From the NCBI RefSeq assembly GCF_900239935.1, contig NZ_LT965929.1, positions 124,001 through 188,000 on the forward strand: a DNA stretch of 64,000 nucleotides, given 5' to 3'. Positions 40,376 through 42,090 of this stretch are shown piece by piece. A program made the position numbers and the translations under genes. Each line of letters starts with the position of its first letter. Positions within the stretch are counted from its first letter, which is position 1. This stretch comes from Pseudoalteromonas carrageenovora IAM 12662. Its GTDB lineage: Bacteria; Pseudomonadota; Gammaproteobacteria; Enterobacterales; Alteromonadaceae. The notes beneath the pieces are model-generated. The model saw only the letters and a list, made by a program, of their open reading frames with translations, searched no databases and had not been told where the DNA came from.

Positions 40376-40481
40376 GCCTAACAAACACAGTCAGTGCGAC
40401 ATTTATTCCGGCGCTTTTTTTATGCCGGCCGCTACGCTGGCATAAAAAAACACCTACATAAATGCGCCTGCTGTGGGCGTT
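40376..40481 (+). repeat. attC site 2, interrupted by the insertion sequence
   Basis: R'' is GCCTAAC. The middle contains a strong apical stem (TTTTTTATGCC with GGCATAAAAAA). The site breaks off at GGGCGTT, directly followed by the insertion element. Joining the other flank restores GGGCGTTATGTC, an R'-like end comparable to GTTATAT in attC6. Confidence 0.8.
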
Positions 40482-40499
40482 GGTATGACTCCCACTGTC

Positions 40500-40791
40500 A
40501 AGTTAAACGCACTGATCCCTGCCTAACTTTTTTAAGTCATAATTACTTTAGCTCGAATTAGAGCGAGTTAATACATAAGATGAAGCAAGTAATTTCGTCG
40601 GTTATCTTGCTGATATTCGTTGGTTATTACTATTTCTAGCAACAGAGCAGACCTTACTTATTCCGTCGTGGCACCTGTCTTCAGTCTATGTTCGTGGTTC
40701 AATGCAGCGTTAGCTGCATTGCCATCCTAACGCCGTCGGTGGTTGTGCCACACCCGATGCTTGATCCCATGCATTAACTCTAATTCGTTTA
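40500..40791 (-). ncRNA. Predicted bridge RNA region of the IS1111-type element
   Basis: The non-coding stretch downstream of the transposase, at the end where IS1111-type elements are reported to encode their bridge RNA. On the minus strand it contains GGCGTTAGG (complement of 40726-40734), identical to the attC R' core. Next to it is a hairpin with an 8-bp stem at 40701-40720 that contains the same core in inverted form. These could be the target-recognition loops. Exact RNA ends cannot be set from sequence alone. Confidence 0.5.
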
Positions 40792-41946
40792 TCATGCGGG
40801 TACTCTTGCCAATCTAAGTTTTGCGTTCACTGGCGTAAGTACCACTTCTTTTGCAATGGCCCATATGTACGCAATCATTTCTCGGGCAATTGCGGTGACA
40901 ACAAGGTTGTAGTGTTTCCCTTTGGCTATCATTTTTTTATAGCGCTTGCAGAGCCTAAGTTGTGCTTTCCACGCAATATCAATAATGTCCTTTGGTAAAC
41001 CTTCTTGTCGTTTTTGCATATCTGTCGATATATTTGCCGCATACCGATAAGTGTGTGCACCTTCAACGAGAAGGCGTCTTGCTCGGCCGTTTCCGCATTT
41101 TGTGATAGCGCCAATATGGCGTTTGCCACCACTCGAGTGTTCACTGGGTACAAGACCGAGATAACTCATTAATTTACGGGGATGGTCGAAGCGCGATAAA
41201 TCACCAAGCTCAGCTACAACGCCGGTGGCGACCAACAAGCGAACACCTCGCATTGCTTGTATTGCTTTAACAACGGGATAATAACGCCATTGATGGACGT
41301 GATGTGTTAGTTCATTGTCTAGTCTTTCAAGTCGGCTTATTCGCTCGGTAATTGTTTGTAAAAACTCCTGTAAGACAATGTGCTGCGCGGGATGTGGCAG
41401 CACAAGCTCAGTGAGCCAACGTAAATGTTTTTGTGACCAATTTGCGGTGCCTTTGTAATTAATATTATTGCGAAGCATCAACGCTTTTAATTGATATTTA
41501 GCATCTTTTAAATCTTCCATGGCTATTTCGCGTGCGCGAGATAAATCGCGTACGGCTTCATCTTCAGGCTCGGGAACATAGATAGGTGTTAAATCTTCAG
41601 ATTTAAGTAATTTAGCGAGCTTAAGGGCATCACGTTTATCGGTTTTAATCTTCTCGCCTGGTTTTTTAGGAATAAGAGACGGGGCAACCACATAACAGCA
41701 ATGGCCAAGGCTTGTGATTAATCTGTAAATCCAATAACCACAAGGGCCTGCTTCATAAACAAAGTGTAGCGTTGCGCCAGGGTATTTAGATTCAAACTGA
41801 CGAACAAGCTTTTGAACGGCCACTTTGGAAGAAGAAAATCGACCAAGGTGAACAGGTTGAGAGCCTCTATGTTCTTCAATATAGGCGACTTCATTGAATT
41901 CTTTATGTGTATCAAGTCCGATAAAAAGTATGCTATGTTTGTTCAT
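40792..41946 (-). CDS. IS110-family transposase (DEDD recombinase with Transposase_20 domain)
   Basis: A 384-residue recombinase. The N-terminal RuvC-like DEDD domain shows GLDTHKEF (first aspartate), FVYEAGPCGYW (glutamate) and KTDKRDALKLAKLL (two aspartates). A helical middle leads to the Transposase_20 domain with MRGVRLLVATGVVAELGDLSRF, SYLGLVPSEHSSGGKRHIGAITKCGNGRARRLLVEGAH; the serine of this segment is the catalytic nucleophile in the family (motifs at ~230-300). All catalytic positions look intact and the frame is full length, so the element may be active. It uses an RNA-guided mechanism in studied relatives. Confidence 0.93.
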   Translation of the reverse strand: MNKHSILFIGLDTHKEFNEVAYIEEHRGSQPVHLGRFSSSKVAVQKLVRQFESKYPGATLHFVYEAGPCGYWIYRLITSLGHCCYVVAPSLIPKKPGEKIKTDKRDALKLAKLLKSEDLTPIYVPEPEDEAVRDLSRAREIAMEDLKDAKYQLKALMLRNNINYKGTANWSQKHLRWLTELVLPHPAQHIVLQEFLQTITERISRLERLDNELTHHVHQWRYYPVVKAIQAMRGVRLLVATGVVAELGDLSRFDHPRKLMSYLGLVPSEHSSGGKRHIGAITKCGNGRARRLLVEGAHTYRYAANISTDMQKRQEGLPKDIIDIAWKAQLRLCKRYKKMIAKGKHYNLVVTAIAREMIAYIWAIAKEVVLTPVNAKLRLARVPA

Positions 41947-42090
41947 GTTAGCCTCTGCTGTTTAGTTAATTGACAAACTAATTATGGCTCTGGCTTTGAA
42001 TTAAGCTAACCCACGAAAAGCGGAGGCTAACACCGTGTGGGAGTCATTATGTCTATGTATCTGTTGTTTCTAAGTAGAAAGGTTTAACTA

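Follow-up and report, generated by a model that had tools for sequence, protein, structure and literature searches.

A predicted two-guide seekRNA of an IS1111-family insertion sequence at attC in Pseudoalteromonas carrageenovora, with a one-base guide difference between near-identical copies at different targets

Targeting of attC by RNA-guided IS1111 elements was shown in 2024 for ISKpn4 and ISPst6, and an RNA with two target matches, in the same order as those described below, was co-purified with both transposases (Siddiquee et al., PMC11187229). The seekRNA of an IS1111 element is defined as an RNA of ~70–100 nt that co-purifies with the transposase and is essential. As this mode of targeting is already published, the element described here is a further case of it. 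The new part is a natural one-base re-targeting between near-identical copies in one genome; in the open-licence literature, at the level of titles and abstracts, no description of one-base re-targeting within one genome was found.

We analysed a window of 64,000 nt, which is the whole stretch from position 124,001 to 188,000 of contig NZ_LT965929.1 of P. carrageenovora IAM 12662, and identified an IS1111-family insertion sequence in it (Table 1). Its transposase has both the IS1111 motif GL-P----S(T)G and the PF02371 C-terminal domain, at the domain and motif level, with DEDD assigned by the family match, and it also matched NCBIfam NF033542 ('IS110 family RNA-guided transposase'). Weak sequence matches to the solved transposases of IS621 and ISCro4 were detected (E about 1e-4 and 7e-4). 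Six copies are present in the host genome, five of them full-length with 100% identical protein and one without the first 57 residues. This sixth copy (L006), with its 5′ part cut off, adjoins a small transposase-like gene, presumably similar to a small Y1/REP-associated transposase.

Read in the transposase sense, the element starts with AGACATA followed by ATGACTCCCAC and ends with GTGGGAGTCAT followed by ACC, which sets its limits at 40482 and 42054. IS1111 elements have a 3-bp right extension beyond the subterminal repeats. A 7-bp left extension is described for the family too (PMC11187229). The sequence ...GGGCGTT ends at 40481 and is followed by ATGTATC from 42055; the element interrupts the 3′ core of an attC site, GGGCGTT/A, where the slash marks the insertion point. 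The original prediction had placed the flanks at 40470–40481 and 42049–42060, which was nearly right, the right part starting at 42055 and not at 42049. Target duplication was absent, as the flanks of L003 read GCATT and ATGAT against the intact AGCATTATGAT in relative L256, and the exact junction was set from intact uvrD genes of relatives. Non-coding DNA amounts to 310 bp downstream of the transposase gene (40482–40791) versus 108 bp upstream (41947–42054), the longer part being downstream as in IS1111 elements. In the attC sense, the right-end extension (40482–40484 and its equivalents in relatives) reads GGT, GAT or GGC, and the split core still reads GTTRR. Judging from these letters, the core left after insertion may be partly functional for recombination.

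Table 1. Features of the element and its surroundings, in window coordinates (a slash within a motif marks the insertion point)
Feature	Position	Strand	Remarks
IS1111-family insertion sequence, 1573 bp	40482..42054	-	Subterminal repeat pair in the window copy and 4 other full-length copies
Subterminal inverted repeats, 11-bp, ATGACTCCCAC and GTGGGAGTCAT			With 7-bp left extension AGACATA and 3-bp right extension ACC
attC site split by the element	40377..40481, rest from 42055	+	R'' CCTAAC ... L'' CACAG ... L' CTGTG ... R' GGCGTT/A; arms strict score 5/5
Transposase, 384 aa	40792..41946	-	DEDD_Tnp_IS110 (PF01548) and Transposase_20 (PF02371), Pfam; GLVPSEHSSG at residue 264
Predicted seekRNA (bridge RNA) core, ~97 nt	40659..40755	-	Covariance model R1, 116 bits
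Closing stem, 5′ strand GTGGCAC	40745..40751	-	Helix 1: 97.9% of cells paired, two-sided changes at 5/7 pairs
Guide 1, GGCGTTAGG	40726..40734	-	Reads target -6 to +1 (GGCGTT/A); match and covariation with targets
Apical hairpin, structural stem-loop, not a guide	40700..40721	-	Helix 2: two-sided changes at 6/7 pairs; no conserved target match
Guide 2, GAACAT/AGAC (GAACATAGAC)	40684..40693	-	Reads target +1, +2, perhaps +4
Closing stem, 3′ strand GTGCCAC	40668..40674	-	Helix 1

Relatives were pooled from named genomes (79 loci, from the best 80 of 119), from other genomes of the genus, family, order and class, and from plasmid records, and were mainly marine gammaproteobacterial. The 216 loci gave 174 distinct ones after removal of shared flanks, 157 of which had a usable flank; nine loci without an RNA anchor, as well as L015 and L055 with an insert after guide 1, were then dropped, which left 146 insertions. 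Copies at contig ends (L016–L020, L163, L025–L033 and L048–L053) are perhaps two ends of one insertion and thus double-counted. Among the 108 genomes of the genus, 24 had matches to a broader sequence pattern, part of them due to chance, and the guide-2 arm was present in 10 of the 18 loci examined from the pattern searches. L229, L236, L238 and L247 lack this arm, look like chance matches and were rejected as copies. Most of the transposase is kept, with broken frames, in L228 and L243, and part of it in L232, L233, L234, L235, L244 and L248, while L240 starts at a contig end. Among 13 distant relatives (41–55% amino acid identity), the right end was recognisable in 10 and not in 3. Six of these 10 matched their own target (seven bases plus A) at 7 or 8 of the 8 positions, the others being L201, L205, L206 and L209; 14 of the 90 cross pairs also reached 7, partly owing to some close kin. 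In L206, its RNA region recurs in the right flank, as would result from insertion of one copy into another's RNA gene.

The region downstream of the transposase gene is strongly conserved, and its predicted fold consists of a closing stem, an open loop and an apical hairpin. Since RNAalifold gave only a thin consensus for 93 sequences, a specified structure was tested instead on an alignment of 83 of them; L057, L071, L085, L109, L114, L115, L119, L162, L166 and L167 were omitted, mainly because their closing stem has inserts in its 3′ half. In the 82 distinct sequences, 96.9% of the cells were paired with two-sided changes at 11 of the 14 pairs, and the covariation of both helices was 0.465 versus 0.175 when shuffled (0 of 500 shuffles reached 0.465) and at most 0.139 when slid. 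The conserved RNA-like structure that had been proposed 3′ of the transposase is borne out by this fold and its covariation. The covariance model R1, which was derived from 83 relatives, the window copy among them, found 6 matches in the host genome at an E-value of at most 0.001, one per transposase copy (150 of 700 first-look candidates were scored). The curated Rfam models gave no match at gathering score anywhere in the window.

Short GC-rich palindromic inserts were observed in the 3′ strand of the closing stem of L008, L009, L057, L071, L109, L114, L115, L119, L166 and L167, which belong to several genera. In L015, L055 and L079, from different genera, a similar insert of ~45 nt with the palindrome CCTACATGGATGTAGG follows right after the guide-1 GGCGTT, which is intact.

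A search for internal promoters found 2 versus 3.4 expected, none of them convincing. The joined ends of the element give TTGACA-17-CATAAT. In the joined ends of 137 relatives, TTGACA or a near form stands 17 bases ahead of a -10-like hexamer in 94 and a poorer form in 4, and 39 show none. Such a junction promoter agrees with that described for ISEc11 (PMC11187229).

The minus-strand GGCGTTAGG was found where the original prediction had put it. It occurs 3 times in the window, twice in the cassette array (39980 and 42477), versus 0.45 expected, and 1 of 100 shuffles had 3. Its proposed role as a guide to attC is supported by match and covariation between guide and target over the 146 insertions, and the attC core is kept in homologues, with GGCGTT in guide 1 of 130 of the 146 (L085 counted, which is aligned one base off and is thus scored as a mismatch in the guide counts). 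The target had G at -3 in 141/144, T at -2 in 142/144, T at -1 in 144/144 and A at +1 in 137/139 insertions, the last two always at the right end of the element, in one orientation. The agreement of guide 1 with the target, 142/144 at -3 and 124/137 at -4, exceeded all 2000 shuffles at both positions; it gave p=0.0055 at -5 and p=0.0005 at -7 and was not significant at -6 (p=0.19), with kinship ignored in all these shuffles. Variation at -2, -1 and +1 was too low for covariation testing. At +2, guide 1 agreed in only 37/134, under the shuffle mean of 48.5, and +3 was no better than shuffles; the guide-1 reading therefore stops at +1, and the terminal GG of GGCGTTAGG lies outside the target match.

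Over -6 to -1, mismatches between guide 1 and target numbered 0, 1, 2, 3 and 4 in 108, 19, 6, 2 and 2 of 137 insertions, i.e. at least one in 29 and at least two in 10, the misaligned L085 among the latter. Guide variants are few in this set. Some agree with their own target, namely L012 (GGAAGTT in both), L036 (AAAAGTT in both), L002 and L003, and T stands at -4 in both guide and target of L025, L027 and L123; others (L014 and L031, both with guide GGTGTT and target GAAGTT, and L216 and L076) do not follow it. The usual guide C faces a target T at -4 in L005, L020, L035, L041, L100 and L167, and further mismatches of the usual guide include L057, L154 and L156. One relative (L112, 80% amino acid identity) was found on a Klebsiella pneumoniae IncC plasmid (NZ_CP095763.1), at an attC-like site between arr-3 and qacEdelta1/sul1 with catB3 and blaNDM-1 near it; its guide GGTGTT faces a target GGCGTT, with a possible G-U pair.

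The predicted guide 2 runs on as AGAC, identical to the left end of the element, and its base before T-AGAC is expected to pair with target +2, so that A predicts T and C predicts G. Guide A was found with target T in 83, G in 24, A in 9 and C in 2 insertions, guide C with G in 13 and T in 2, and guide T with A in 1. This amounts to 97 matches of 134, the best of 5000 shuffles being 90 (kinship ignored). With one vote per unique RNA, the target was mostly G in 7 of 9 C-type RNAs versus 16 of 80 others (Fisher p=0.0009). Target +4 also covaries with guide 2 (p=0.0008), and +3 and +5 do not. At attC-like GGCGTT sites (loose detector), the T:G ratio for A-type elements was 36:11 when occupied versus 33:33 when unoccupied (p=0.006). 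The predicted RNA thus matches each target strand over a short stretch, with the top-strand match first, as in a seekRNA.

IS1111-attC elements are likewise characterised by a single orientation and by a site within the 3′ core of attC. Of the occupied sites with at least 150 nt upstream (n=134), 67 had a strict attC-arm score of 5, 25 a score of 4 and 42 a score below 4, versus no score of 5 and under 1% with a score of 4 among 532 control CGTT sites elsewhere in the window. The 42 low-scoring sites indicate that the strict test misses sites or that some targets are not attC. GGCGTTA is common, with 23 sites in the 64-kb window versus 11 expected, so the seven guide-1 bases alone cannot explain the attC preference; this preference calls for something beyond guide 1 or for selection against genic insertions.

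Two host copies, L002 and L003, share a guide-1 change from G to A at the base equivalent to 40731, which faces target -3. No other substitution in the element is common to both and absent from L001, L004 and L005; relative to L001, they differ by this guide base and one base private to L001, and L002 by one further difference. L002 lies at GACATT/AAAT in a porin-like gene (the family scan gave a sub-threshold porin-like match only), which we take to encode a FadL-type outer-membrane protein, and L003 lies at AGCATT/ATGA in uvrD (TIGR01075 on the 242-aa first part). Both targets carry the A that matches the changed guide base, and the leftover guide-1 differences, at -5 in L002 and at -6 in L003, are of wobble-compatible kinds. 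The strict attC score is 0 for both versus 5 for L001, L004, L005 and L006; L002 is scored as attC-like by the loose detector. Five identical transposases thus go with guides of two types, the base at target -3 varying with the guide. A at -3 was found in 2/2 insertions with the A guide versus 1/152 others, i.e. in none of the 142 others of the counted set; 10 further, mostly decayed, G-guide insertions outside that set, in which RNA and right end were recognisable, had G in 8, A in L239 and T in L244. L239 has both guides and the right end, with the usual G guide beside an attC-like GCATT and no transposase match in its 3-kb locus; it represents either the remains of a decayed copy or a transposase-less RNA.

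A single match to the uvrD fragment was found in the host genome; among relatives, 9 of 10 likewise have one, in an open frame of 721–746 aa. The only uvrD (DNA helicase II) match in the host is broken after codon 242 (L003 462–1187 and from 2761), and the mutation rate of the strain may be raised.

Taken together, it is very probable that the element targets attC by means of a seekRNA (bridge RNA) encoded in the non-coding DNA 3′ of the transposase gene, with two guides that meet at the insertion point. Such an RNA, with its closing stem, open target-binding loop and apical hairpin, would be transcribed from the promoter TTGACA-17-CATAAT formed when the ends join in a circle, and would be bound by the transposase. 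The 5′ arm of the loop, GGCGUUA, would pair with one target strand from -6 to +1 of GGCGTT/A, the 3′ arm, ACAU/A, with the other strand beyond the cut, and this pairing would cause the choice of site. The ends, insertion point, orientation, putative RNA fold and guide–target covariation were all established by comparison of sequences.

Another placement of the guides was the one originally proposed, with GGCGTTAGG and the hairpin loop GCTAACGC as the pair. The hairpin AATGCAGCGTTAGCTGCATT with its perfect 8-bp stem is indeed present at 40701–40720 and, in the window copy, contains GCGTTAG as its reverse complement. The hairpin regions of 51 of 94 unique RNAs share 4 to 6 nt of TAACGCC (4 nt in 17, 5 nt in 19 and 6 nt in 15). 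However, the 2 occurrences of GCGTTAGC in the window compare with 4.0 expected, and 2 or more were reached in 90 of 100 shuffles, so the copy in the hairpin alone is at chance level. The remaining 43 RNAs share no piece of at least 4 nt, and nearly all of the 94 relatives target the same kind of site; the loops seen include TAAC, TCAC and GAAA, the last, for example, with the same kind of target. The stem also varies by compensatory change, with changes on both sides in 50, 41 and 43 of the 82 sequences for the three innermost of the tested pairs, and the hairpin stayed constant in L002 and L003 despite their altered target. A guide in the hairpin is therefore very improbable. The predicted second guide lies beyond the hairpin, at 40684–40693, and the hairpin between the guides would only hold the structure.

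The shortness of the 7-bp guide match, which cannot single out attC in a genome, implies that something else contributes, and it might be argued that the transposase protein alone recognises attC, the RNA match being a by-product of captured attC sequence. This is scarcely credible, since copies with identical protein differ in their targets, following the RNA base, and guides covary with targets in other lineages. It could also be argued that L002 and L003 are accidental off-target insertions with an unrelated guide change in common: they share one mutation, i.e. a single evolutionary event followed by two insertions, a mismatch is tolerated by other copies such as L005, and the decayed G-guide remnant L239 lies beside GCATT. 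Yet both targets have A exactly at the changed position, where A is otherwise confined to one of the 10 further insertions, and no other substitution sets the two copies apart from L001, L004 and L005, which makes an accident unlikely.

How far the re-targeting extends is a more balanced matter. We see an even chance that it represents guide drift, in which one guide-1 base change let an attC-bound copy found a lineage landing in ordinary genes, including the only uvrD found, and in which sister copies form a guide pool shared in trans, with a target range that evolves like a quasispecies. To move, an element must also be flanked by a matching target (PMC11187229), so the mutated copy probably left attC with the RNA of an unmutated sister, or by mismatch tolerance. 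The copies give a clean natural experiment, with the same protein, the same genome and one RNA base changed, and the address changed to match. Apart from this, the analysis yields a covariance model as well as a large collection of guide–target pairs for attC-seeking elements, one of which adjoins resistance cassettes on the Klebsiella IncC plasmid, corrects the placement of the second guide within the RNA, and raises the question of why such elements sit in attC, given that seven guide bases are insufficient.

As in ISKpn4 and ISPst6, the predicted RNA lies downstream of the transposase gene, the insertion is at one end of attC, and there is one short match per target strand, the top-strand match being 5′ of the bottom-strand match, a likeness at the level of the published description (PMC11187229). 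Unlike the family figure of 330–350 aa, which is the spread of IS1111 transposase lengths and not a criterion, the transposase here has 384 aa (PMC11187229). The targeting of attC is shared with the IS1111-attC group (Tetu and Holmes 2008; Post and Hall 2009; as cited in PMC11187229 and PMC11616780); unlike that named group, the relatives here are mainly marine gammaproteobacterial, the likeness being one of targeting. The DEDD recombinase, the two-guide target loop and the overlap of the putative guides at the core recall the IS621 bridge RNA (Durrant et al. 2024, PMC11208160), whereas the predicted RNA here lies on the downstream side instead of upstream, and its guides come in the opposite order. 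Finally, a guide change accompanies a target change as in the natural re-direction described for ISEc11 and ISXne4, the proteins of which are 72% identical with 3/13 target bases shared (PMC11187229), whereas here the proteins are identical and the guides are one base apart.
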